From: Gottfriedia acidiceleris
GTDB taxonomy: Bacteria; Bacillota; Bacilli; Bacillales; Bacillaceae_G
Direction: 5' to 3'
Length of the DNA stretch: 64,000 nucleotides
NCBI RefSeq assembly: GCF_002128425.1
Contig: NZ_NESS01000017.1
Coordinates: forward strand, 1-64,000
Positions 4,546 to 17,778 of the stretch are shown piece after piece (within the stretch, counting starts at the first letter, position 1; each line of letters opens with the position of its first letter). The position numbers and the translations under genes are program-made. The notes under the pieces are model-generated. The model saw nothing but the letters and a program-made list of their open reading frames with translations, had not been told where the DNA came from and searched no databases.

Positions 4546-4977
4546 TTACTTTGATAAACGAAGTCTGTGTCTTCTTTCTCCTTTTACATATCCATCTAAC
4601 CACCAATTATTTAAAAAAGATTTACAACGGTCAAATGGTTCTGTTTGAATATCATCCTTACGACCAAATACTGAAGAATAAAATAAATAAGCTAACCATT
4701 CTGATTCTTTAGCTGATCTTCTTTTAACATTCTCGATTGGTTCACCATAAAAACCAAATCGGCTATATCTTGCACCCAATAAGTATGTTTCTACCGCTAA
4801 CTCTAAACAGTAATCTTCTCTTGCTTTTCTTTGGTTAATGTCTGCGTCTATACAGTAGGAAAATGAATCCTTTAATTGGGCTTTTAATTGCATTATTTTT
4901 AATTCTTTTAATAAGCTTTTTTCAAATGTAATTTGCTTTGCTCTTCTTTTTTCTCGGAAATTTGTTATAAGATTCAT
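4546..4977 (-). CDS. ybaK: YbaK, DUF2521-family protein
   Basis: A 143-residue, charged, probably soluble protein. The central block GARYSRFGFYGEPIENV and the C-terminal WWLDGYVKG segment match Bacillus YbaK (DUF2521). No function is known for the family. It stands 58 bp upstream of the cwlD ATG, as in B. subtilis, so co-transcription is likely. In B. subtilis it is close to rpsI; here a 12-kb block separates them. Confidence 0.85.
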   Translation of the reverse strand: MNLITNFREKRRAKQITFEKSLLKELKIMQLKAQLKDSFSYCIDADINQRKAREDYCLELAVETYLLGARYSRFGFYGEPIENVKRRSAKESEWLAYLFYSSVFGRKDDIQTEPFDRCKSFLNNWWLDGYVKGERRHRLRLSK

Positions 4978-5172
4978 GATGAAACCTCCCCGTAGCCATA
5001 GTCTAAGACGAAAAGGGGTGCTTCATTCAAAAACTACATACTTAATTTCTTCCATAAAAAAATAATAATTTTCATAAAAAACATAGATTTTATATAATAG
5101 AAAAATTGTATTAATTTTGAATTAAAAATGCATTATTTTAGGGCTTTTTAAATATCTTCTCTTTCTTAAATC

Positions 5173-5213
5173 ATAAAAAAGAGGGGTCTTTGAAGCACTC
5201 TATTCCCCTCTTT
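5173..5213 (-). terminator. terminator of the dehydrogenase gene
   Basis: Minus strand: AAAGAGGGG ... CCCCTCTTT with an 18-nt loop, then TTTATG. It begins 8 bp after the stop of the gene at 5221-6483. The segment 4978-5172 between this and ybaK is AT-rich and holds only the presumed ybaK promoter region. Confidence 0.8.
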
Positions 5214-5220
5214 CATATTT

Positions 5221-6483
5221 TTAATTATTATATGATTTCATTCTTTGTAAAAGTAATCCATCACTTTTTTCATTTTCTCCATATACAAACTGAGTCATAT
5301 GATATTTTAAATAATGTCCATATTTAGTATTTGTATTTAATATTAATTCATCTACAAAGTAGGCACCATTTTCTACTGTATCCAAGAATAAACTTGCAAC
5401 TCCTGCATAAACTCCACACGCTACCTGAAGATAGGTTGCATTTGTACCGTAATTAGCGAATGAATCTTTATTGTTCATAACATTATAGATATAGCGCTCT
5501 TTATCTTCGTACACAAGTAATACTCCAACTACGTCCTCTCCTACCAATGGAGCTGTTGAAGGATCTAGAAGCTTTTTATCAAAACCCAATATTTCGTCAG
5601 TGTTTTTTAAATTATCTCTAATTAGATTTGTTGTATGCTCATTAACACGATACACAAAACCACTTTCTAAGTTGAACAATTTGCCAATAATAAATACTTC
5701 TTCATGTGGCATTAGACAACCATAAAAGACTTTTTCACCCAATGTAACTTTAAATTCAACAGAATAAACATCATCATACAAGAAGATTGGAATATTTTCT
5801 TTAACGAACATAGGATAGCTCGTGACTGCTTCTTCTAGGAAACAATCTGGGGACCAAGTGGTGTAAATCGTTTCTTTTTGAGCTAAAGAAGGGTTTTCAT
5901 AAAAAGAGTTATCATGTTCAACAATGTAACATGCAAGAGGTTTTTCGGAAGGGAATTGGTTCATTAAATCGATTGCCATCCATTGCACAATTCCAGGATT
6001 CATACCTGAACCAATAATTGCTGTAGTATTTTTAAACTTTCGTTTATTTTCTTCGAAGATACGTAAACGTTCTTTTAGTGGGAACCCAGTACTAACATCT
6101 TCATCTACTATTTCACTTTCTAAAGCTGTGTTGACATACTTAACACCAAACTCATTACAACATCGTAACATTTCAACAGAATCCGCTCTAGAAACATCAA
6201 CTACAATAACTGTATTACTCTCTATGAGATGTTTTTTCATTAAATCAATATTATTAACATTCATCTCATGAAACGTAACTTTTTCTATTAGGTTAGGAAT
6301 AATTTTTTCAAAATATGTTAAGTCTTTCTGTTTCAAATCAATTAAATGAAACCTGGCATTTTTCATTAGCTTGTGGATCGGATCATTTTGATCATTCGCC
6401 GCTTTATTAAATATAGAAAGTACTGCCTTTGCTACTCCGCCGGAACTACCTAATAGGGTAATAATCGCATCTTTTTCAAACAT
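5221..6483 (-). CDS. saccharopine dehydrogenase / homospermidine synthase-like NAD(P)-binding protein
   Basis: A 420-residue protein. The N-terminus IITLLGSSGGVAKAVL (about residues 7-22) is a Rossmann nucleotide-binding fold. NTVIVVDVSRADSVEML and GVKYVNTALE follow, then IIGSGMNPGIVQWMA. The last corresponds to the NPGMV region of homospermidine synthase and saccharopine reductase-like enzymes. I infer an NAD(P)-dependent oxidoreductase or synthase of that superfamily; the substrate (polyamine or amino acid) cannot be told. It is monocistronic, with its own terminator. The ribosome binding site is GGAG 8 nt before the ATG. It is foreign to the conserved ybaK-rpsI neighbourhood, so either inserted or moved here. 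Confidence 0.65.
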   Translation of the reverse strand: MFEKDAIITLLGSSGGVAKAVLSIFNKAANDQNDPIHKLMKNARFHLIDLKQKDLTYFEKIIPNLIEKVTFHEMNVNNIDLMKKHLIESNTVIVVDVSRADSVEMLRCCNEFGVKYVNTALESEIVDEDVSTGFPLKERLRIFEENKRKFKNTTAIIGSGMNPGIVQWMAIDLMNQFPSEKPLACYIVEHDNSFYENPSLAQKETIYTTWSPDCFLEEAVTSYPMFVKENIPIFLYDDVYSVEFKVTLGEKVFYGCLMPHEEVFIIGKLFNLESGFVYRVNEHTTNLIRDNLKNTDEILGFDKKLLDPSTAPLVGEDVVGVLLVYEDKERYIYNVMNNKDSFANYGTNATYLQVACGVYAGVASLFLDTVENGAYFVDELILNTNTKYGHYLKYHMTQFVYGENEKSDGLLLQRMKSYNN

Positions 6484-6593
6484 ATAAACAACTCCATAAA
6501 TTGGTTTAATATTAGCTATTACTTTACTATATGTACCAACGAAAAAAAGTGTTCGGACAAGTATCCTATCTATATGATCTATACTATTTACTG

Positions 6594-6623
6594 AAAAAAA
6601 AAAGCCTAACTATAAATAGTTAA
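6594..6623 (-). terminator. terminator of the portal gene
   Basis: Minus strand: TAACTAT-TT-ATAGTTA followed by GGC and a run of ten T. The stem is short and AT-rich but the T run is strong, 15 bp past the portal stop codon. Moderate support. Confidence 0.55.
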
Positions 6624-6637
6624 AAGCCCTAATTTTA

Positions 6638-7963
6638 TTAACTAGTTTTATCATCAGTTTCTGTTTTTTCTAAAAGCTTCTTTTGTTGTTCCATACAAAA
6701 TTCATTAAGTTTTTTGCATTCTTCCCTACATTCTTGTCTACATCTTTCAATTTCTTCTTCTCGTTTCTTTTCTCGTTCAACACGTAATTCAAATTCTCGG
6801 TCTCTTTCTTTTTGGTCGATTGGGGCAGTACTTGTATTTAGAAGTGGCACATTACCTCTCTCGATTGGCCCAATCCCCATTAAAGAACGCCATTCATTAG
6901 GAGTTAAAGAAGCTCGTTCTACCATAACTGAAAATGCTAATTTTGTTGCGATTGATGCAAATTCTAAGTTAGATGCTTCAAAAACGATCCGATTACCATT
7001 TTTTCGTTCCGCAGGAGTGAAGAATTTACGTGTAAATTCATTATTTAGCTGGATAATTAAAGGATTAATTACGGCTTCATTATACGTATTCCATTGATCC
7101 TCATTAAAAGTACTTTGAACTATATTTTCGTTCGTATTAAAAAAACTATAGATTCGTTTTATCGTACCATTCGTTCGTTCCGCTTCCGGTGTATAGTCAT
7201 TTGGTGATACTTGTTCTAAATCATACGTTGGCTCTGAAAAACCTGCTTTTACACCATCACCTGTAAATTTCATATAATTGTTTACAAATTCATTCGTATT
7301 CTTAATCATATCTTCTTGATCTAGAGTTTCCTTAAAGTTCAATAACCAATTCATAAAGCGATTGTTGCTTACATTTTCGACGATACTGTCATCTACAGAA
7401 TCAATCACTTCTAATAACGGAAGTAAAGGATCATATGGGGGCGTACCAAATAGGTCATTGCTATTAAAATCTTGTCTTAAATGAATGATATCGCTATATG
7501 GTAAAATTAGTACATTTTTAGTTTTGAATGTGAATTTTAAAAATATCAAACCTTGATTATTTTCGAGCACTTCCACTTTCGTACAAGGAATAGGAAAAAT
7601 AGCGGTTGGATATCCAAAATCATTTCGCTTTATAAAAGCAAACGCATTACTATTTAAGTCAAGCTGAGTTACCATTTTCTCTAAAAGTAATTGCCTAGAC
7701 ATAAATGGATTTGGTTCTTGAAGTACATTAAAAACCCAAGGATCAGGGTTTATCTTGCATTCTCTGTTATTTTCTCTAACATGGGTTACTTTTAGTTTTC
7801 CAATTGCATTGGCTTTAGGTCTAATACATGCCCTGATGACATCATTCTTAAATAATGTATCGCCTAATGTTAATTGGCCATCCCCTTCATCATTTAATAA
7901 CTCAAAAGAACTAGTGCTAGATTGAAAATTCATTTTTCCCATTATCCAGTCGATCAAGCCCAA
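6638..7963 (-). CDS. orphan phage portal protein, HK97 family
   Basis: A 441-residue protein of HK97-type portal organisation: N-terminal MGLIDWIMGK, an early segment about acquiring or lacking residues (NDVIRACIRPKANAIGKL), the DIIHLRQDFNSNDLFGTPPY / LLPLLEVIDSVDDSIVE block, and the late NEFTRKFFTPAER and TPNEWRSLMGIGPIERG motifs typical of portals. Portals form the dodecameric DNA-entry ring of tailed phages. No terminase, protease, capsid or tail gene adjoins it. The last ~60 residues are an Arg/Glu-rich coiled coil with several Cys (CRQECREECKK). The start is TTG with an AGGGGTGAT site 5 nt before. The frame is open over the full portal length, so it is not a decayed pseudogene by eye. 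Function outside a phage is unknown. Confidence 0.85.
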   Translation of the reverse strand: MGLIDWIMGKMNFQSSTSSFELLNDEGDGQLTLGDTLFKNDVIRACIRPKANAIGKLKVTHVRENNRECKINPDPWVFNVLQEPNPFMSRQLLLEKMVTQLDLNSNAFAFIKRNDFGYPTAIFPIPCTKVEVLENNQGLIFLKFTFKTKNVLILPYSDIIHLRQDFNSNDLFGTPPYDPLLPLLEVIDSVDDSIVENVSNNRFMNWLLNFKETLDQEDMIKNTNEFVNNYMKFTGDGVKAGFSEPTYDLEQVSPNDYTPEAERTNGTIKRIYSFFNTNENIVQSTFNEDQWNTYNEAVINPLIIQLNNEFTRKFFTPAERKNGNRIVFEASNLEFASIATKLAFSVMVERASLTPNEWRSLMGIGPIERGNVPLLNTSTAPIDQKERDREFELRVEREKKREEEIERCRQECREECKKLNEFCMEQQKKLLEKTETDDKTS

Positions 7964-8138
7964 TTTACATCACCCCTAACGTAGAGGGCCGTAGGTAAAT
8001 TTTATAAAGGTATATTATTTTATTCTTTTAAAATTCTCATATGCTCCAAATCGGTAATGAATTATTAGATTTTTTTAATTTTCTCTATTTTAAAATATGA
8101 GTAAACAATTTAGTTTATTCCTGAAAGTAATCACATAC

Positions 8139-8170
8139 AAAAAAGCCCCTCAAACATATTGCTGAGGGCC
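8139..8170 (-). terminator. terminator of glnL
   Basis: Minus strand: GGCCCTCA - 10-nt loop - TGAGGGGC followed by TTTTTTG, 15 bp after the glnL stop. The segment 7964-8138 upstream of the portal gene is AT-rich and holds no other feature I can support. Confidence 0.8.
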
Positions 8171-8184
8171 TAATAATATTTAGT

Positions 8185-9117
8185 TTAATATCTTTCAACT
8201 AAAAGCTGTTTAGATTCAAAGTATAAAACTTGTATAAATTTCTTTGCATTAATTCGAGTATGTGTTGATGAAGTCAATGATGCTTGCTTCAATTCACTCA
8301 TTCTTTGACGAACTGTTTCAAAATCAAAAAACTTAGAAGCATAGTTTTCGAATTTAGGGTTCGCAAAATCTGTTAGTCCTATTGATGCCATATGGTTTAA
8401 TGATTGATAGATTGCTCTACGAACTCTTTGTTCAGATGATTTCCTTTCCCGCTCAACGTCTTCGCTAGAATTTACAATTCCTAGCTTTTTTAAACTGATG
8501 TGAGTGTATATATCCTTTAAAGTAGGAAATCCTGCCTCTAGACCAAAATTCGTTTCGTATTCATATAAGTAATTGAGCATATCCAGCAAATCCTTGCTCC
8601 CATTTTCTCCAGCTATGCCTAGCTCCGATAATAGAACCTGTCCCCAGTCCGTAATTTTCTTTTTATCAGACATTGGCTTATGTTGATTTATTGAATTTAC
8701 ATCAAAAACATTACTTAATGACTTTTGAATATCAAGAATCGACCGCTCTAGTCGAATTCGCTCCAAAACCTTTCTAACGACCGAAATCACTTCAATTTTA
8801 TTCAATGGCTTAGTAATGTAATATTCAATACCAAAAGAATACGCTTCTCCAATTAATTCTTTCGATTCAACTTGTGAAATCATAATAATTTTTCCTTTGA
8901 ATGAAGGTCCCATTCTACGAATTGTCTCTATACCGTCCTGGAGGGGCATTAATAAGTCTATAAATAAAATATCTACATGATTTATTTCAAGCGTATTTGC
9001 ATCTAAAAAGTAGCCATCTTCCGCCTCACCAACAACTTCTCCTAACTCTTCATCTTCTATAATTTGAGACAACATCGATCGAAAGACTTCATCATCATCT
9101 GTGATATAAAAATTCAT
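8185..9117 (-). CDS. glnL: GlnL-type response regulator
   Basis: A 310-residue response regulator. The receiver domain spans about 1-120 with acidic pocket D7-D9, phosphoacceptor D54 in FIDLLMP, and K103. The C-terminal half is the YcbB/GlnL-type DNA-binding domain, with SSEDVERERKSSEQRVRRAIYQSLNHMA and the closing region VLYFESKQLLVERY. The closest remembered relative is B. subtilis GlnL (YcbB, 314 aa), which activates glsA-glnT. The gene overlaps the end of the kinase gene by 4 nt, so the two are translationally coupled. The position behind maeA suggests control of dicarboxylate or acidic amino acid use rather than glutamine; that is inference. Confidence 0.85.
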   Translation of the reverse strand: MNFYITDDDEVFRSMLSQIIEDEELGEVVGEAEDGYFLDANTLEINHVDILFIDLLMPLQDGIETIRRMGPSFKGKIIMISQVESKELIGEAYSFGIEYYITKPLNKIEVISVVRKVLERIRLERSILDIQKSLSNVFDVNSINQHKPMSDKKKITDWGQVLLSELGIAGENGSKDLLDMLNYLYEYETNFGLEAGFPTLKDIYTHISLKKLGIVNSSEDVERERKSSEQRVRRAIYQSLNHMASIGLTDFANPKFENYASKFFDFETVRQRMSELKQASLTSSTHTRINAKKFIQVLYFESKQLLVERY

Positions 9118-10472
9118 AAATTCACCCTTTCTAGGACGAGAACTTCAATTGGTAGTCGGATCGTAAAAATACATTCACTCTCTTTTTGACTGAGAATAAC
9201 TTCTCCTCCCAATTCTTCTGCCATTTCTTTGATATAGGATAAACCAATTCCTGTAGATGGGGTTCCATCATCACTATATTTAGAAGTAAATCCAGGTTTA
9301 AAAATAAGCTTCATATATTTTGACGGAACTCCAGGGCCATTATCAATAACCTTACATTCAATCCAATCTTCAACTCTTTCTATTGATAAGAGAATTTTCC
9401 CTTTATCCTCTATAGCTTCAACTGCGTTCGCAACTAAGTTATTAATAAATGATAGCATTAGATAAATATGATAGTGCGGATGTTGTCCCTTTATTTGAGA
9501 AACAAACTCAATTTTCTTTCCAAGCATGCCTGCATATTTTTGATTAATTCGGACAATCATTGTTACTAAATCATTTACACTCATATATTCAGGTAAACTT
9601 TCACTTGTAATAAGTTTAGAAAGTCCCGCGAAAATTCTTTGGTTATCCTTTTTTATTTCATGTACCTCTCCTGCGATCCTTAGAGATTTGTTCCCCCAAT
9701 TTTCAATTGGAACTCCTAAATCCTGTTTATACTTACTCATGTCTCGATATAAATTGTAGGATTCTTTTGTTATCGTTTCGGCATTTTGTAGCGTTTTTTT
9801 CAAATATACAGACTCTACATACAAATTAGATAAATGCATAAGCATATTTTCATTCTCTTTACGAGTTTGTGATTCCTTCAGTTTTAGCTCGTAAAGTTTC
9901 ATCATATTGATAAATGCTAATACAAAAAAGCTTCTAAACACAGCAATAATAATAATTTTGTTTAACTCTTCTACAGTCAGTGTAGATCCCATTCCATATA
10001 GTTGAAGTATTAATTCGATTAAGCTAGAAGTGATCTCAATCGTAATACCGAATATCCCTATTAGCAAAGGATGCTGAAACCGATTCACCTTTATTAAATA
10101 AAATAAAACGGAATATGAAAAATAATATAAGAAAGTAGGAAATCTAACCGAAAAAGATGAAGCAAGATTAAAATCTGACAATACTAACCAATCTAGTCCA
10201 ACACGGAATACAAAGACAGATATGCCTATTAACAGCCCTATTACAACAGAATGATAATTCCTAAAATACAATAAAGAAAAGAAGAATATAGGGGTTCCAA
10301 AACTCACGCGAAATATATTATCAAATGGATGAAAGTTCAGTTCACCCGCTATCGGAACAAGAACCATAAGTGCAATAACAATCCAAAAATCTTTACTTTG
10401 CAGTCCTTTAGATTTCAAATCCGTCACTTCCTGATTTTTGCTACTAGTATATCGCCTTGTTGTTATTAACAC
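9114..10472 (-). CDS. glnK: GlnK-type sensor histidine kinase
   Basis: A 452-residue kinase: about six membrane helices in the first ~190 residues, a coiled-coil linker (about 195-240), a DHp helix with phosphoacceptor His near residue 271 (GEVHEIKKDNQR), and a HATPase_c domain with N box NNLVANAVEAI, G1 DNGPGVP and G2 STGIGLSYI. The HExKKD type of acceptor and the pairing with a GlnL-type regulator place it with B. subtilis GlnK (YcbA); it is not the PII protein GlnK. The GTG start has GGAGG 6 nt upstream. There is no obvious extracytoplasmic sensor domain, so sensing may be by the membrane part. Confidence 0.82.
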   Translation of the reverse strand: MLITTRRYTSSKNQEVTDLKSKGLQSKDFWIVIALMVLVPIAGELNFHPFDNIFRVSFGTPIFFFSLLYFRNYHSVVIGLLIGISVFVFRVGLDWLVLSDFNLASSFSVRFPTFLYYFSYSVLFYLIKVNRFQHPLLIGIFGITIEITSSLIELILQLYGMGSTLTVEELNKIIIIAVFRSFFVLAFINMMKLYELKLKESQTRKENENMLMHLSNLYVESVYLKKTLQNAETITKESYNLYRDMSKYKQDLGVPIENWGNKSLRIAGEVHEIKKDNQRIFAGLSKLITSESLPEYMSVNDLVTMIVRINQKYAGMLGKKIEFVSQIKGQHPHYHIYLMLSFINNLVANAVEAIEDKGKILLSIERVEDWIECKVIDNGPGVPSKYMKLIFKPGFTSKYSDDGTPSTGIGLSYIKEMAEELGGEVILSQKESECIFTIRLPIEVLVLERVNL

Positions 10473-10503
10473 AATGTTCCTCCAAACTACTAAATTTCAT
10501 AAG

Positions 10504-10535
10504 AAAATACAGCTTGATGATACAAGCTGTATTTT
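10504..10535 (-). terminator. hairpin between maeA and glnK (partial terminator)
   Basis: A perfect 13-bp stem, AAAATACAGCTTG / CAAGCTGTATTTT, with a 6-nt loop. On the minus strand it is followed by TTTTCTTATG, a weak T run, so it may only partly stop transcription coming out of maeA before glnK. On the plus strand the T run is longer. Confidence 0.65.
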
Positions 10536-10541
10536 TTATTT

Positions 10542-12236
10542 TTATATAGTAACCAATTCTTTTGTCGCTTTAATAGGTCGATAAGCAGGCTCCCACATTG
10601 CGTTTCGTACAGCTTGCTCAATATCGTCGTGTACTACTCGAGCTACCCCGTCTGCAACTGCTGCTTTTGCTACTTCAATCGCAACTACTTCTGAAATTGT
10701 ACGTAGATTTTCGATTTGAGGTAGTAAAGGTGCGCCTAATTTACTTACATCGATCATTTCCGCTACAGCTTCTGCAGCCGCTGCAAACATTCCATCTGTA
10801 ATAATACTTGCGCGTGAAACATTTGTTCCGAGTCCTAAGCCCGGGAAAATAAGAGCGTTATTTGATTGACCAATTACATAAACCGTTTTGTTATATGTTA
10901 CTGGAGCAAAAGGACTTCCTGTTGCTACCAGTGCTCTTCCTTCAGTCCACTTAATTAAATCAGAAGGTTTTGCTTCTGCAAGTGGTGTAGGATTTGACAT
11001 CGGTAAAATTACAGGTCTTTCAACATGTGCTGCCATATCTTTCACAATCTCTTCTGTGAATGCACCGGCAACAGTTGAAGTACCAATTAAGATAGTAGGA
11101 TGAACTTGGCTTACAACTTCTGCTAAGCTTGCACCTGATTTATTTTCTTCAGTTGGACGCGCATACGGTTGTTGGAAGTCGAACAATCCTTCCATATCCT
11201 CTGAAAGCAATCCATTTCGGTCTATGCACCAAAATCTGCGGTTTGCTAATTCGAATGAAAGACCTTCACGTACCATTGCATCACGTACTTGATCTGCAAT
11301 TCCAATACCAGCTGCTCCTGCACCGAATACAACTACTCGATGTTCACTTAATGGAATACCAGATGCATTCACTGCTGCTAGCACAGCGGCAAGTGATACT
11401 GCTCCTGTACCTTGAATATCATCATTGAAAGTACAAACTTGGTGACGGTACTTATCTAATATATTTCGTGCATTTTTAGAACTAAAATCCTCCCAATGTA
11501 GTAATGCATTTGGGAATTTCTCTACAGCAGTTGTTACAAACTTATCAATGAACGCATCATATCGACTATCGCGAACGCGAGGATGACGGTTTCCAACATA
11601 AAATGGATTATTTAGTAGCTCTTCGCGATCAGTACCTACATCTAAAACGACTGGCAATACTCGTGCAGGATCAATACCTGCAGCAGCTGTATATACCGCT
11701 AATTTACCAATTGCGATATTAATACCGCCAACTCCCCAGTCACCAATTCCTAATATGCCTTCACCGTCAGTAATAACGATTAAATCAATTTCGTCTGCAT
11801 TTGCACCATAATTATCAAATGCTTGTACAATACCATCCTCTTCATTAATAGATAGATACAAACCACGAGGTCTTCTATATTCATGACTATAACGTTGAAT
11901 TGCTAAACCAACTGTTGGCGTATAAACAACCGGAAGCATTTCTGGTAAGTGATCAGTTAGTACTCGATAAAATAATGTTTCATTACGATCATGTAAAGCT
12001 GATAATGCAACATTTTTATGCAAATCAGTAGGTTGTGACGAGAATTGCGCGTAAGCTCGTTTAGCTTGCTCTTCAAGCGTCAGTACAGCTGGCGGTAATA
12101 ATCCTGTTAAACCTAGTTCGTTTCGTTCCTCTTGAGTAAATGCAACTCCTTTATTAAGCATTGGCACACCTAATAATTCGGCACCTCGCAAGGTAGTCTC
12201 CACTTCTCCATTCGAACCTACCTTGAATTTATGCAT
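10542..12236 (-). CDS. maeA: NAD-dependent malic enzyme
   Basis: A 564-residue malic enzyme of the long SfcA/MaeA type: oxidative decarboxylation of L-malate to pyruvate. Motifs seen are [20 protein letters not shown] (substrate domain), [14 protein letters not shown], the metal-binding [11 protein letters not shown], and the nucleotide fold [13 protein letters not shown]. The ATG at 12236 gives [13 protein letters not shown] and has a GGGATGGGAT purine-rich site; an upstream in-frame start would run through a terminator hairpin and is rejected. E. coli MaeA has 565 residues. It lies downstream of gltP-aspA but is separated from aspA by a terminator and a repeat. Confidence 0.93.
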
Positions 12237-12280
12237 GTTATCCCATCCCTTTTCTATATTTTTATCTTTTTTAGTTAAGC

Positions 12281-12300
12281 AAAAAAGGGCTTTTCGCCCT
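12281..12300 (-). terminator. terminator/attenuator in front of maeA
   Basis: Minus strand: AGGGCGAAAAGCCCT followed by six T. It is a compact GC-rich stem with a GAAA-type loop, 156 bp past the aspA stop and only 45 nt before the maeA start. Either it ends the gltP-aspA transcript or it regulates entry into maeA. No strong promoter is visible between it and maeA. Confidence 0.75.
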
Positions 12301-12332
12301 TCACTTTGCAATTAATAATTGTCAGACTGATT

Positions 12333-12449
12333 AAAAACCACTTATCTTTCAATGTACGACGCCAGAAGCGGCGCTAAAGTTGCATAAATAGCAGTATAAG
12401 CACCGAAAAACAGGCGAGGCAACATAGAAAGTGAGCGTTTATCAGCAGT
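12333..12449. repeat. dispersed repeat, copy B, behind aspA
   Basis: The core 12341-12437 matches the repeat behind cwlD (3680-3753); this copy has an extra internal hairpin (GCGCCGCTTCTGGCGT on the minus strand). It is flanked by direct repeats GACTGATT at 12325-12332 and 12450-12457, which look like target-site duplications. It begins 7 nt past the aspA stop codon. No ORF. Confidence 0.55.
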
Positions 12450-12456
12450 GACTGAT

Positions 12457-13893
12457 TTATTGACGTTCTAAAAGAACTGCACCAGCAATACCAGGGTGAG
12501 TCATTTCAAATGGATCTAAAATTAAATCAAGCTCTTCTTCTGATAATACATCGTATTTTAAGCAAAGTTCACGAATTGGCTTTCCTGTTAGGATTGCTTC
12601 TCTCGCTATTCTTGCAGCAACTTCATAACCAATATGTGGATTAACCGCTGTGATTAGACCAACGCTCTTTTCTACATATTCTTTCATTCTGTCTTCATTT
12701 GCTTCAATTCCTTTTAAACAATTATCAGTAAATGCACGGAATGCATTATTCATAATGTTAATTGATTGAAGTAAATTAAATACTAGTACAGGCTCCATAA
12801 CGTTTAATTCTAATTGTCCTGCTTCAGACGCTAAACAAATTGTATGATCATTACCGATTACTTGGAATGCAACTTGGTTAATAACTTCTGCCATTACAGG
12901 GTTTACTTTACCTGGCATAATAGATGAACCAGGTTGACGTGCTGGTAATGAAATTTCACCAAGTCCTGCACGTGGACCTGAAGCCATTAAACGTAAATCA
13001 TTCGCAATTTTAGACATATTCATCATACATACTTTTAGAGCAGCCGATACTTCTGTGTAAGCATCAGTATTTTGAGTAGCGTCAACAAGATGCTCAGCTC
13101 CAACAAGTGATAAGCCGCTAATTTCAGCAAGATGCTTAACAACTAATTCAATGTAACGAGGATCTGCATTTAGACCTGTTCCAACCGCTGTAGCTCCCAT
13201 ATTTACTTCATATAAGTGCTGACGAGATTGTTCGATACGTTTTATGTCACGACCAAGTACTCGAGAATATGCTTCGAATTCTTGTCCTAAACGAATTGGT
13301 ACTGCATCCTGTAAGTGAGTACGGCCCATTTTAATAACATGGTCAAATTCTTTTGCCTTTAATTCAAATACATCACGCATATAATTTATTGTATTTAATA
13401 ATTTATCTAACATATTTAAAGTCGCGATATGAATTGCAGTTGGGAATGCATCATTTGTAGACTGCGACATATTTACATGGCTATTTGGACTAATACAGAA
13501 ATAGTCACCTTTTTCTTTACCTAGTATTTCAAGTGCACGATTCGCAATTACTTCATTTGCATTCATGTTCATTGATGTACCTGCGCCACCTTGAATAGGG
13601 TCAACAATGAACTGGTCATGCCATTTACCTTCAATAATTTCTTGAGCAGCCTCTGCAATTGCATTACCATTTCCCTCATAAAGACGTTTTGTTTCCACAT
13701 TAGCAAGTGCAGCTGCCTTCTTTACAATTGCTAAAGCTTTAATAAGCTCTTCGTGAATTTTATAACCAGTAATCGGAAAATTTTCAACTGCGCGTAATGT
13801 TTGGACACCATAATAAGCATCTGCTGGAATTTCTTTTTCCCCTAAAAAATCTTTTTCGATTCGTATGTTTGGTTTAATTTCAGTAGCCGCCAT
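12457..13893 (-). CDS. aspA: aspartate ammonia-lyase (aspartase)
   Basis: A 478-residue member of the aspartase/fumarase superfamily. Seen are the substrate-loop signature GSSIMPGKVNPVMAEV, PNSHVNMSQSTNDAFPTA, and the early GGAGTSMNMNANEVIANRA block. The full length and the E-P-V-L-V-F-N-L motif fit aspartase (L-aspartate to fumarate plus ammonia) rather than fumarase; the neighbouring glutamate/aspartate transporter agrees. B. subtilis has the equivalent ansB. It follows gltP by 18 bp with a ribosome binding site in the gap, so the two are an operon. Confidence 0.92.
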   Translation of the reverse strand: MAATEIKPNIRIEKDFLGEKEIPADAYYGVQTLRAVENFPITGYKIHEELIKALAIVKKAAALANVETKRLYEGNGNAIAEAAQEIIEGKWHDQFIVDPIQGGAGTSMNMNANEVIANRALEILGKEKGDYFCISPNSHVNMSQSTNDAFPTAIHIATLNMLDKLLNTINYMRDVFELKAKEFDHVIKMGRTHLQDAVPIRLGQEFEAYSRVLGRDIKRIEQSRQHLYEVNMGATAVGTGLNADPRYIELVVKHLAEISGLSLVGAEHLVDATQNTDAYTEVSAALKVCMMNMSKIANDLRLMASGPRAGLGEISLPARQPGSSIMPGKVNPVMAEVINQVAFQVIGNDHTICLASEAGQLELNVMEPVLVFNLLQSINIMNNAFRAFTDNCLKGIEANEDRMKEYVEKSVGLITAVNPHIGYEVAARIAREAILTGKPIRELCLKYDVLSEEELDLILDPFEMTHPGIAGAVLLERQ

Positions 13894-13911
13894 TTGTTTT
13901 TTCTCCCATCT

Positions 13912-15183
13912 TTACGCAACTTTAGATTCCTTAACAGAATTAATATATTGTTGCGCTTTATCTTTATCGTATTCGCCTTCCCATTTCGCCATCGTAATAG
14001 CTGCCAATGAGTTTCCTAATACATTTACTGCAGAACGAACCATATCTAAAATACGATCAATACCTGCAATTAATGCGATTCCTTCTAAAGGTAATCCCAT
14101 TGAACCTAGTGTAGCCAGTACAACTACGAACGATGCACCAGGAACACCAGCCATACCTTTTGATGTCAGCATTAGTACAAATAACAATGTAATCTGCTCC
14201 ATAAAAGACATGTGTACATTATACATTTGAGCGACAAATAATGCAGCAAGAGCTTGATAAATCGCTGAACCTGTTAAGTTAAACGAGTACCCTGTCGGTA
14301 TAACAAAAGATACTATTGCTTTTGGACAACCCATTTGCTCCATTTTTTTCATAATGTTTGGAAGTACTGCTTCCGAACTTGCTGTTGTAAAAGAAAGAAT
14401 CAGCTCTTCCTTTAAAATCTTCATAAGTGTAAAAATATTCGTCCCTGTCATTTTAGCATTAATACCTAAAATAACAATAGCAAAAAATGCCACAGTTACA
14501 TAAACAGCTAATACTAGTTTACCAAGTGGTAATAATGTACTTACACCAAACTTTGCAACTGTTACAGCAATTAACGCGAATACCCCAAACGGAGCAGTTT
14601 TCATAACTTGATTTGTAACCCAAAACATCGCTTCTAAAACGCCTTCGAAAAATCCAAGAACAGGCTTTCCTTTATCTCCAATCGCTGCTACACCTAAACC
14701 GAATAAAACAGAGAAGAAAATAATCGGTAATAGATCACCTTGTGCCATAGATTCAAACACGTTTTTTGGGAAGATATGAACGATTGTTTCTGCAAAGCCA
14801 CTTTGTTGAGTTGCAGTTGCTGTTTGTTCATAAGCTGAAATATCACCTTTTTGTAGATGGCTCATATCTACGCCTGTACCTGGGTGGAATAAATTCGCTG
14901 CAAGCAATCCTATTCCAAGCGCAATTGTCGTAATGATCTCAAAATAAAGAAGTGTTTTTCCTCCAAGTTTCCCTAACTTCTTTATATCGCCTACACCTGC
15001 TACGGCAACTACAAGTGCTGAAATTACAATTGGCATTACAATCATTTTAATTAAATGAATAAAGATATCACCAATCGGTTGAATATAAGATATTGCCGTT
15101 TCATTTCCGTATACTAATGCTCCTACAACTATACCTAATATAAGAGCAACAAAGATTTGCGTAGCTAATCCAAATTTCTTCAT
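13912..15183 (-). CDS. gltP: GltP-type glutamate/aspartate:proton symporter
   Basis: A 423-residue membrane protein of the dicarboxylate/amino acid:cation symporter family (DAACS). The C-terminal transport core is clear: a Ser-rich FTTASSEAVLPNIM re-entrant loop, SFVIPTGYSFNLTGSAIYQA, TSKGMAGVPGASFVV and AGIDRILDMVRSAVNVLGN. It resembles E. coli GltP more than DctA by these motifs. The ATG at 15183 has AAGGGGG 7 nt upstream; a start nine codons earlier falls inside the cre site. It is the first gene of gltP-aspA. Transport of aspartate, glutamate or C4-dicarboxylates cannot be separated by sequence. Confidence 0.9.
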   Translation of the reverse strand: MKKFGLATQIFVALILGIVVGALVYGNETAISYIQPIGDIFIHLIKMIVMPIVISALVVAVAGVGDIKKLGKLGGKTLLYFEIITTIALGIGLLAANLFHPGTGVDMSHLQKGDISAYEQTATATQQSGFAETIVHIFPKNVFESMAQGDLLPIIFFSVLFGLGVAAIGDKGKPVLGFFEGVLEAMFWVTNQVMKTAPFGVFALIAVTVAKFGVSTLLPLGKLVLAVYVTVAFFAIVILGINAKMTGTNIFTLMKILKEELILSFTTASSEAVLPNIMKKMEQMGCPKAIVSFVIPTGYSFNLTGSAIYQALAALFVAQMYNVHMSFMEQITLLFVLMLTSKGMAGVPGASFVVVLATLGSMGLPLEGIALIAGIDRILDMVRSAVNVLGNSLAAITMAKWEGEYDKDKAQQYINSVKESKVA

Positions 15184-15195
15184 ATAAATCCCCCT

Positions 15196-15209
15196 TGTTA
15201 ACGCTTTCA
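15196..15209. promoter_or_regulatory. catabolite response element (CcpA site) before gltP
   Basis: TGTTAACGCTTTCA matches the cre consensus TGWNANCGNTNWCA at every position. It lies between the promoter and the gltP ribosome binding site, a place where CcpA would act as a roadblock. This predicts glucose repression of gltP-aspA. Confidence 0.8.
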
Positions 15210-15236
15210 AACATTTAAGTTAAATGCTTAACTAAT

Positions 15237-15265
15237 TCTATATGCAAACCTACAAAACAATACAA
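15237..15265 (-). promoter_or_regulatory. candidate gltP promoter
   Basis: Minus strand: -35 TTGTAT (15260-15265), 17-bp spacer, -10 TATAGA (15237-15242). An alternative is -35 TTGCAT (15242-15247) with 17-bp spacing to TTTAAC (15219-15224), which would put the TTTTGT array directly upstream of the -35, in the position expected for an activator. Confidence 0.5.
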
Positions 15266-15277
15266 AAACCTACAAAT
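15252..15277 (-). promoter_or_regulatory. TTTTGT direct-repeat array, candidate GlnL operator
   Basis: Reading the minus strand from 15277: ATTTGT (15272-15277), AGGT, TTTTGT (15262-15267), ATTG, TTTTGT (15252-15257), AGGT, then TTGCAT (15242-15247). The last pair is an exact TTTTGT-N4-TTTTGT, the operator form I recall as reported for B. subtilis GlnL, with a third, upstream near-copy; all in 10-bp phase. Since a GlnL-type regulator is encoded about 6 kb downstream in the same block, it is the likely ligand (inference). Confidence 0.65.
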
Positions 15278-15300
15278 ACTTTTAAAATAATTTAAATAAG

Positions 15301-15331
15301 AAAAAAAGCTCGACCACTTTGATGGCCGAGC
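15301..15331 (-). terminator. terminator of the OppA-like gene
   Basis: Minus strand: GCTCGGCCA - 6-nt loop - TGGTCGAGC (one G-U pair) then TTTTTTTC. It separates the OppA-like gene from the gltP promoter. Confidence 0.85.
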
Positions 15332-15413
15332 AATTTCATATGTTTAACTATACTACTAGTAATACACCTCTATGAGGGTCACATTCATATCTAATTTTGT
15401 CTACACAAGTTTG

Positions 15414-17042
15414 TTATTTTTCAATATAGGCATATTTATAAGTATTAGGACCATATACATAGAAATCTTTCAAATATGGACGTTGAAGATAAGATGTCCC
15501 TTTTTGGAATAGAGGCACAACTGCATCATCATTCAACAAAATCTCCTCAGCTTCTTTCAACGCTTCCCAACGTTTTGGCAAATTATAAAGCAAATCTGTT
15601 TTAGCGTGATTAATTAAATTATCATATTTCGGATTTGAGTATCCGGTTTGATTAAATGCACCGTTTGTAACGAACATATCCAAATAAGTCATTGGATCTG
15701 GGTAGTCGGCTCCCCAACTAGAAAGTGAGATATCATAATCCATAGCTGATTCTAGCTTCAATTTTTGAGCATTAGGTTGTTGTTTGATATTAATCGTTAA
15801 TCCGCTTAAGTTTTTCTCGAGTTGCTCTTGTAAATATTCTGCAACCAGTTTAGAACTATCATCATCGTAATTTAACAACTCTAATGTTACATTCGTGACA
15901 CCAAGTTCATTTTTCGCTTTTTCCCAATAATCTTTTGCTTTTTTTATATCAAGATGGCCATATGTAGAAGTTGTTTTCCTGAAATCTTTTCCATCTGGGC
16001 CAAAGGCTAATTCCTCAGGCACTAGATAATCAGCAGGTACAGAGCCGTTGTTTAGAATAACATCTGCAATTCCTTTTTTGTCGATGCTTAAACTAATTGC
16101 TTTTCTGGCATTAGGATTTGCTAAAATTTTATTTTTTTCATTTAAACGTAAGAAGTTTGTTCTGCCATTCAAATAAGTTTTCAGGGTTGCATCATTTTTG
16201 TATTTATTTACTAAATCACCACTCAAGTCTACACGGTCAATTTGCTTTGTTGTGTATAAGTTTACTGCTGTTGAAGTATCTTTTACGACATTAATATTAA
16301 CTTCCTGCAGTTTCACTTTATCTTTATCCCAATAATTAGGATTTTTTACAAGTTGCAGGTTCTGCTCATGATTCCATTTTTTTACGATGAATGGACCATT
16401 ATATAGTGTAGCATTTGCTTCTGAACCAAATTTTTTTCCTTGTCCTTCCACGAACTTTTTGTTCAATGGATAGAATGTTGTAGAAGAAACTAAATCTATA
16501 AAATATGGTACCGGATTCTCCAACTCAACTTGCAATGTATGATTATCAATTGCTTTAACGCCTAGTTCATCTACTGGCAACTGCTTTTCATTAATTTTTT
16601 TCGCATTTTTTACATCATATAGTAAGTATGCATATTCTGCACCTGTTTCTGGATTTACAGCACGTTTCCAAGCGTATACAAAGTCTTCGGCCGTAATAGG
16701 ATCGCCATTGGACCACTTTGCATCCTGAAGTTTGAAAGTATAGGTCTTTTTATCTGGGCCAAGTGTATAGGACTTAGCTAAGGCTGGCTCCGGCCGATTA
16801 TTTTTGTCCACTCGATATAACCCCTCGAAAACGTTATTCATAGCGGAAATCGATACAGAATCTGTTGCCAAGGTCGAGTCTAAAGTAGAAATCTCCGCTG
16901 TTTGCGTTACATTCACAACCTGTTTCGTTGATTTTGATCGAGCAACTGTTTTTGTTTCTGCCGATTTGTTGCTACAGGCTGTAGCAAATAAGCTTGTAGT
17001 TAGTAATACAAATAAGGCAATATATCTTACTTTTTGATTCAT
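15414..17042 (-). CDS. OppA-type peptide-binding lipoprotein
   Basis: A 542-residue extracytoplasmic solute-binding protein (family 5, SBP_bac_5). The signal peptide ends in FATAC with lipidated Cys near residue 23, followed by a Ser/Lys-rich linker. Motifs include the N-terminal EISTLDSTLATDS, YTFKLQDAKWSNGDPITAEDFVYAWKR-type oligopeptide-binding signature and the C-terminal WGADYPDPMTYLDMF, as in OppA/DppE. It is a lone gene with its own promoter and terminator and no permease or ATPase genes beside it, so it must use transporters encoded elsewhere. The start is uncertain among three close ATGs; 17042 is chosen for its adjacent GGAG. Confidence 0.88.
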   Translation of the reverse strand: MNQKVRYIALFVLLTTSLFATACSNKSAETKTVARSKSTKQVVNVTQTAEISTLDSTLATDSVSISAMNNVFEGLYRVDKNNRPEPALAKSYTLGPDKKTYTFKLQDAKWSNGDPITAEDFVYAWKRAVNPETGAEYAYLLYDVKNAKKINEKQLPVDELGVKAIDNHTLQVELENPVPYFIDLVSSTTFYPLNKKFVEGQGKKFGSEANATLYNGPFIVKKWNHEQNLQLVKNPNYWDKDKVKLQEVNINVVKDTSTAVNLYTTKQIDRVDLSGDLVNKYKNDATLKTYLNGRTNFLRLNEKNKILANPNARKAISLSIDKKGIADVILNNGSVPADYLVPEELAFGPDGKDFRKTTSTYGHLDIKKAKDYWEKAKNELGVTNVTLELLNYDDDSSKLVAEYLQEQLEKNLSGLTINIKQQPNAQKLKLESAMDYDISLSSWGADYPDPMTYLDMFVTNGAFNQTGYSNPKYDNLINHAKTDLLYNLPKRWEALKEAEEILLNDDAVVPLFQKGTSYLQRPYLKDFYVYGPNTYKYAYIEK

Positions 17043-17141
17043 CTCCATTATCCCCTTCATATATATTGGCTAGATGAAAACTTTTCTTTGATTTATTTAC
17101 CTTTGAAAAAAGCAAAGAAAAAATACTAGTATAACTACTAA

Positions 17142-17170
17142 ATTATCATAGTATTCCGATAGAAAATCAA
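17142..17170 (-). promoter_or_regulatory. candidate promoter of the OppA-like gene
   Basis: Minus strand: -35 TTGATT (17165-17170), 17-bp spacer, -10 GATAAT (17142-17147) preceded by an AT-rich region. It implies a leader of about 95 nt. Confidence 0.5.
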
Positions 17171-17333
17171 GGATTAATTTTTGGGTAGGTAATAAGTTAT
17201 TCGATTTCTTGGTTTGAGAGCATTTTAAATGTGATTAATATATGTAAGAAGCAAACAGAAGATAAATTCAAAAGGTACCTTCAACTATGATTTGTAGACA
17301 AAAATTATTTCGTAGTCAAAAGCACTTTTTAGA
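17171..17333. other. intergenic, nothing recognised
   Basis: AT-rich sequence between the OppA-like promoter and the rpsI terminator. I find no ORF with a ribosome binding site, no strong hairpin and no repeat. It marks the right-hand edge of the block that separates ybaK from rpsI. Confidence 0.5.
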
Positions 17334-17372
17334 TATAAAAAAGACCCTTTCCACAAATGTGAAAAGAGTCTT
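17334..17372 (-). terminator. terminator of rplM-rpsI
   Basis: Minus strand: AAGACTCTTTTCACA-TT-TGTGGAAAGGGTCTT (G-U pairs tolerated) followed by TTTTTTAT, 13 bp past the rpsI stop. Confidence 0.88.
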
Positions 17373-17385
17373 GAGATTTTGATAA

Positions 17386-17778
17386 TTAACGTTTTGAGAA
17401 CTGAGGAGCTCTACGTGCACCTTTAAGACCGTATTTTTTACGCTCTTTCATACGTGCATCACGAGTTAATAATCCAGCGCGTTTTAAAGTTCCGCGGTAC
17501 TCAGGATCAACTTGTAATAATGCTCTAGAGATACCGTGACGAATTGCACCAGCTTGACCAGTGTATCCACCACCGTTAACGTTTACTAGAATATCATAGC
17601 TACCTAATGTTTCAGTTGCAACAAGTGGTTGTTTAACAACTTCTCTTAATGCAGCGAATGGGATGTAATCTTCAAAATCACGACCGTTAATGATAACGCG
17701 TCCTTCGCCAGGAACTAAACGTACACGAGCTACTGAGCTTTTACGACGTCCTGTGCCATAGTATTGTACTTGTGCCAT
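17386..17778 (-). CDS. rpsI: ribosomal protein S9
   Basis: 130 residues, the usual length. It opens [19 protein letters not shown], and its tail [14 protein letters not shown] places the conserved C-terminal Lys-Arg in the P site of the 30S subunit. It is 21 bp downstream of rplM with a GGAGG site, the standard L13-S9 operon. Confidence 0.98.

Follow-up and report, generated by a model that had tools for sequence, protein, structure and literature searches.

Introduction

To our knowledge, portal proteins work only within the vertex of a capsid. The nearest described relatives of the gene considered here, the HK97-family portals of Caldibacillus phage CBP1, Clostridioides phage phiCD08011, Terrisporobacter phage TPDSL_ph2, and Lactobacillus phage PLE2, are proteins of 384–411 amino acids encoded between terminase and protease/capsid genes; they belong to the same domain family and share 37–48% identity with it over about 385 residues. 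The GTA portal is an HK97-type portal domesticated by a bacterium and works within a full head–tail gene cluster, while the encapsulins are HK97-lineage capsid proteins turned into stand-alone cellular genes with cargo partners. A report on Tab, the tail assembly blocker of the Pseudomonas prophage JBD26 (PMC10884400), describes how this one protein stops the assembly of virions after replication; the present protein would work alike if it acts as a decoy in phage head assembly. According to the same report, Tab is encoded by a prophage and acts on the tape measure protein, unlike the portal described below, and its main text makes no mention of a portal.

Here, we describe an HK97-type portal gene that stands alone in the genomes of Gottfriedia, a bacterium of soil. 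The stretch of DNA analyzed (64,000 bases, hereafter the window) comprises bases 1–64000 of a 69,275-base contig in a genome of 4.77 Mb. In comparison with the portals of the four phages, the solitary portals have no terminase, protease, or capsid genes as neighbors and carry an acidic stem and an added helix. The GTA portal (PDB 6toa/6te8) is a structural match to the model of the solitary portal; unlike the GTA, no CBP1-type terminase or capsid is common to the Gottfriedia genomes. As compared with the encapsulins, the Gottfriedia gene derives from a portal and has no known partner. No published precedent for a solitary domesticated portal was recognized among the literature matches listed, which cover few subscription papers and were judged by titles and abstract openings. 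It is very probable, in our opinion, that this portal has been domesticated as a bacterial gene. A single portal gene conserved in 12 of 13 genomes of a genus that has no common CBP1-type capsid or terminase, with changes concentrated in certain parts of the protein, would offer a directly testable case of a bacterium using a portal ring for itself, in parallel to the capsid proteins that became encapsulins.

An intact portal gene between cellular genes

The stand-alone portal gene (positions 6638–7963, minus strand) is an intact open reading frame of 441 amino acids with a TTG start, flanked by cellular genes and identified by profile and structure matches. Residues 42–363 match Pfam PF04860 (Phage_portal) with an E value of 1.1e-43 and 150 bits (cut-off 39), and the protein also matches phrog_12 (portal; E 2.1e-63); against TIGR01537, the NCBIfam HK97-portal equivalog, it scores 95.5 bits, under the cut-off of 112. 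The HK97 portal 8cez was the only PDB match (E 1.8e-4) of a single-sequence search at E 0.001. An earlier structure model built from 24 sequences had a pLDDT of 46.5, which led to a deeper alignment; the model from 70 aligned sequences has a pLDDT of 76.2 and a pTM of 0.63. In this predicted portal fold (pLDDT 76) wing, stem, clip, and crown are all present, and the best 50 of its 647 PDB matches (E up to 10) are all phage or GTA portal, neck, connector, or virion entries, with E values of 8.9e-18 against HK97 8cez and 2e-12 against the GTA portal 6toa. The first-pass annotation, made from the letters alone, had recognized a full-length HK97-type portal of 441 amino acids, and these matches bear it out.

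The portal adjoins a saccharopine-dehydrogenase-like gene (5221–6483, minus strand), whose Pfam matches are sub-threshold, and a gene for a YcbB-domain response regulator, which we take to be GlnL-type. Reading of the window's open reading frames (at least 60 amino acids up to base 16000, at least 120 beyond) recovered ribosomal, metabolic, sporulation-type, and regulatory genes, and no terminase, capsid, protease, or tail gene was recognized among those listed; the initial statement that both neighbors are cellular and that the window holds no other phage head or tail gene agrees with this reading. A search of PADLOC at E 0.01 returned no family for the portal and both neighboring genes.

Distribution in Gottfriedia and insertion site

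An intact orthologue is found in 12 of the 13 Gottfriedia genomes, the window's own included; ten share 89–100% identity with the window's portal and two 63–64%. Named records of Gottfriedia acidiceleris and G. luciferensis are among the portal matches at 89–94% identity. The 13th genome, G004, has only a 25% portal match, located beside a terminase-like gene, and no such orthologue was found either in G004 or in six genomes of sister genera. The same dehydrogenase-like gene neighbors the portal in all 12 carriers; the DUF2521 gene (presumably ybaK) and an amidase gene come next, and then Mrp in 11 of the 12, the contig of L034 stopping before it. The dehydrogenase-like gene itself is missing from G004; its link with the portal is an association only. 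Extra copies of it occur elsewhere in G001, G009, and G011. On the other flank, the portal adjoins the regulator gene in ten genomes, a presumably SelO/YdiU-like gene (L041 6742–8214), which lies between regulator and portal, in L041, and directly an aspartase/fumarase-like gene in L042 (8166–8453). No malic enzyme or two-component genes were found within the 16.5 kb of L042.

The gap between rpsI and the DUF2521 gene (window 4977–17386 and L151–L156) is an insertion site in Gottfriedia: in the window's genome it holds a metabolic island that includes the portal, and the other carriers have its like. The DUF2521 gene is present in six genomes from three other genera of the family; in the five of them read at the site the rpsI–DUF2521 spacing is 132–435 bases, and G004 has different genes upstream of DUF2521. 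The short spacing in the sister genera and the other genes in G004 indicate therefore that the portal either entered this site within the genus or has been lost from G004. A comparison of the ybaK–rpsI interval in related species, suggested at the outset, thus places the portal at one site in 12 of the 13 genomes of the genus, with no such orthologue in six genomes of sister genera. The window starts at a contig end, which might raise the suspicion of an assembly artefact or of contamination; the portal–dehydrogenase–DUF2521–amidase order recurs across 12 genomes, including two in which the gene sits on contigs as long as 4.7 and 5.2 Mb, and refutes this explanation, to which we assign a negligible probability.

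Search for other phage head genes

The neighborhood of each portal was searched with the terminase, protease, and capsid of three phages, one being Caldibacillus phage CBP1. None of these proteins found a match at any of the 12 solitary Gottfriedia loci (12.5–19.5 kb each), and no adjacent phage head gene was found at them. In a sample of 397 genomes of the order, by contrast, every one of the 12 other portal loci with E up to 1e-60 has a terminase within about 1.5 kb; one of these loci belongs to Gottfriedia G002. Among 17 loci with E up to 1e-40 outside the genus (from class and phylum samples of 398 genomes each, two being already in the order sample) 14 have a terminase and the other three a capsid. 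The order, class, and phylum samples together gave 27 distinct relatives for this check, and all 27 stand beside terminase or capsid genes; 12 of them share less than 36% identity with the window's portal. A terminase is present at the weaker matches L015, L016, and L018 (L017, L019, and L020 lie outside this check), and L029 has none within its 3.4 kb, a terminase lying just beyond its end. The viral-contig relatives came from an alignment-based search, a single-protein search having given none; 78 of their 80 portal loci carry a terminase, one of the two misses being cut at its start and the other having a 280-base upstream flank.

At the scale of whole genomes, a CBP1-type terminase occurs in three of the 13 Gottfriedia genomes (G002, G004, and G006) and a CBP1-type capsid in two (G002 and G004), and the window's own genome has no match to either. 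Some of the terminase and capsid matches of G002 and G004 cluster with portal matches in a prophage-like manner (the G006 match and one further G002 terminase lie outside this look). At G002:C1:604773-609579 (L028, L064, L067), prophage-like terminase, portal, protease, and capsid genes of a related lineage are found in a genome that also has the solitary portal. Dispersed head genes were considered and rejected, no CBP1-type terminase or capsid being common to the genomes of the genus.

These counts bear on the idea that the portal serves a satellite or gene-transfer system with its remaining head genes encoded at other places in the genome. The match of its model to the GTA portal 6toa (E 2e-12) speaks for such a system, as do the domestication of GTA portals and the dispersed genes of some GTAs. 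The few genomes with a CBP1-type terminase or capsid, together with the strong divergence of the motor-docking end described below, speak against it, so that this explanation is improbable and the conduit of a satellite or gene-transfer system proposed in the first-pass annotation is disfavored.

Selection and descent

Over the 45 pairs of the ten close species, dN of the portal is 0.041, dS 0.50, and dN/dS 0.083 (Nei–Gojobori; the pairs are not independent); this value lies within the range of 11 neighboring genes, 0.036–0.115, three of which were estimated from 36 pairs. Selection on the portal is thus not relaxed. Along the protein, dN/dS is 0.101 for residues 1–40, 0.042 for 41–200, 0.138 for 201–290, 0.065 for 291–385, and 0.074 for 386–441. 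The nucleotide distances of the portal follow those of three core neighbors in the ten close species (Mantel r 0.88, p 0.0006), and this tracking of neighboring genes indicates vertical descent.

A tree of 92 portals groups the 12 solitary ones in a single clade (100/100) on a stem of 0.77 changes per site. This clade is nested in a 100/100 clade of 55 rows, the others of which are phage, viral-contig, and prophage portals of the CBP1/phiCD/PLE2 type; long-branch warnings concern L170 and L063 inside the 55-row clade and none of the 12 solitary portals. The base of the 55-row clade is unresolved, so that the tree does not single out a sister phage lineage. One clade on a long stem among phage portals argues for a single capture, and the 12 solitary portals thus likely go back to one acquisition from phage. 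It is well supported that an ancestor of most Gottfriedia species acquired one portal gene from a phage lineage of the HK97 type, and equally well supported that its descendants have retained it with no other part of the phage, as an ordinary gene that is vertically inherited and under selection. A recent or decaying prophage remnant would account for a phage gene standing alone; the gene is intact in all 12 carriers, with a low dN/dS, in a single clade, and at one site, which refutes a remnant and leaves it only the slightest likelihood. Retention for a cellular use, the central proposal of the first-pass annotation, is by the same token well supported, the gene being intact and syntenic in 12 of the 13 genomes with a dN/dS of 0.083.

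Remodeling of the portal protein

The solitary portals were compared with 39 close phage-type portals, in which 103 positions are near-invariant (the same in at least 37 of 39); 71 of the 103 are retained in all 12 solitary portals. In HK97, according to two reports (PMC10359639, PMC7617512), the clip touches the terminase and then the adaptors, while the wing touches the capsid. Retention is uneven between these regions, with 51 of 60 sites kept in the wing versus 8 of 22 in stem and clip (Fisher p 4e-5, which is not a clean prior test since the domain borders were set from the model after a 30-residue window scan had shown the pattern). From the N-terminus and on the minus strand, the N-terminal wing part (residues 34–176; 7436–7864) keeps 35 of 41 phage-conserved sites in all 12, stem helix 3 (residues 177–200; 7364–7435) keeps two of eight, the clip (residues 201–253; 7205–7363), which in phages is the terminase/adaptor-docking end, three of nine, the second stem helix (residues 254–276; 7136–7204) three of five, the tunnel loop and second wing part (residues 277–336; 6956–7135) 16 of 19, and the crown (residues 337–383; 6815–6955) 10 of 18; the model from which these borders were taken has only moderate confidence in this region (block pLDDT 47–80).

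In stem helix 3 the mean identity falls from 0.69 between phages to 0.29 between solitary and phage portals, a drop of 0.40; the corresponding drop is 0.21 for the clip, 0.20 for the second stem helix, and 0.25 for the crown, and the two wing parts lose 0.11 and 0.15. Solitary portals carry a net charge of −3 to −6 on stem helix 3 and phage portals one of −2 to +1, with no overlap between the ranges. The excess divergence of residues 177–276 over the rest of the protein amounts to +0.11 in the solitary portals, a value reached by 10 of 383 circular shifts, and ranges from −0.05 to +0.05 in eight hand-picked phage subgroups. Given the identity drop of 0.25 and the lost sites in the crown, the change is not limited to the motor-docking end.

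Beyond the crown, the solitary portals end in an added charged helix (residues 384–433; 6665–6814, minus strand) of about 50 residues, modeled with a block pLDDT of 59–90 and not found in close phage relatives; viral-contig portals with complete ends have 380–421 amino acids and 0–39 residues beyond the part that aligns with the window's portal. The tail contains four cysteines in each of the ten close species, five in L042, and one in L041, whereas the 39 phage portals have zero to three over the whole protein. Residues 386–441 are under purifying selection (dN/dS 0.074), and a Pfam search with the tail alone gave no match. The tail had been called a cysteine-rich coiled coil at first sight. 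The cysteine-rich, helical part of this description is real; the coiled coil is not proven by the helix, since a long charged helix is easily predicted.

Possible functions of the solitary portal

Several functions may be envisaged for such a protein. The portal product probably still folds and forms a ring through its wing, while the acidic, remodeled stem and clip would no longer dock the packaging motor or the tail adaptor and the added C-terminal helix would extend or cross-link the crown. It is tempting to propose that this ring acts as a decoy which seeds or enters the procapsids of incoming HK97-type phages, giving rise to heads that could not be filled and hence to a lower phage burst. 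Among the mechanisms considered, such a decoy against phage head assembly seems to us the most likely, albeit with somewhat less than an even chance of being correct. This reading is drawn from the kept wing together with the changed docking end, and the contacts described for HK97 (PMC10359639), in which the wing touches the capsid and the clip the terminase, are counted in its favor. Capsid-assembly interference or superinfection defense, put forward in the first-pass annotation, is a possible role. Several observations count against the decoy. Defense genes usually show diversifying selection or patchy presence; the portal shows no sign of diversifying selection, even residues 201–290 having a dN/dS of 0.138, its presence in 12 of 13 genomes of the genus is not patchy, and it is without a PADLOC match. 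Moreover, G002 carries both the solitary portal and a prophage of a related lineage, so that lysogeny by such a phage is possible, and divergence extends to the crown, a part other than the motor-docking end. Folding alone may explain why the invariant wing residues are retained.

Alternatively, the domesticated ring might have a cellular role apart from phage assembly, for instance as a scaffold, as a ring that conducts DNA or protein, or as a structural component with a partner bound to the new C-terminal helix, which we regard as almost as likely as the decoy. Its near-universal vertical inheritance in the sampled genus and its neighbor-like dN/dS support a cellular role, as do the new helical, mostly cysteine-rich tail held under purifying selection and the loss of motor-docking residues. 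The lack of an orthologue in G004 and in the six sister-genus genomes and the cysteine pattern, not retained in L041 with its single tail cysteine, weigh on the other side, and such a ring has no known partner or pathway. A cellular role agrees as well with the steady purifying selection and the near-universal vertical inheritance as the decoy does with the kept wing and changed docking end. Put more broadly, the chances appear evenly balanced that the portal is a stand-alone bacterial ring without motor docking and with a mostly cysteine-rich coiled-coil barrel, serving most of the genus as a procapsid-assembly poison or as a cellular conduit.

Expression signals

The portal had also been credited with its own ribosome binding site, promoter region, and terminator, and these fared differently. 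No sigma-70-like promoter was found upstream of the portal, contrary to the second of these claims. A block conserved in the alignment of the ten close species (8009–8044, minus strand, borders approximate) is a candidate promoter, and none of the sigma consensus strings tested on it fits consistently better than shuffled sequence. Promoters of named sigma factors were likewise rejected, none of these strings consistently beating shuffles across the 12 species. Matches resembling sigG sites are rare in shuffles (4–10 of 100) in seven of the 12 species, but they occur at two different positions; in the other five, including both deep species, they are no better than chance. That no sporulation-sigma promoter is consistently beyond chance is a further point against the cellular ring.

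As for the terminator, a hairpin downstream of the portal is present but weak (z −1.7; 14 of 200 shuffles fold equally well), and the clear terminator lies upstream, where a terminator-like hairpin (8147–8168, minus strand) ends the regulator gene and sets it apart from the portal. The ribosome binding site, in turn, is plainly visible: the strong site AGGGGTGA (7970–7977, minus strand) precedes the non-ATG start of the window's gene, and a strong site likewise precedes the non-ATG starts of its orthologues. The start codon (window 7961–7963) is non-ATG in all 12 orthologues, being TTG in ten, ATT in one, and CTG in one, and this common feature may keep translation of the portal low.
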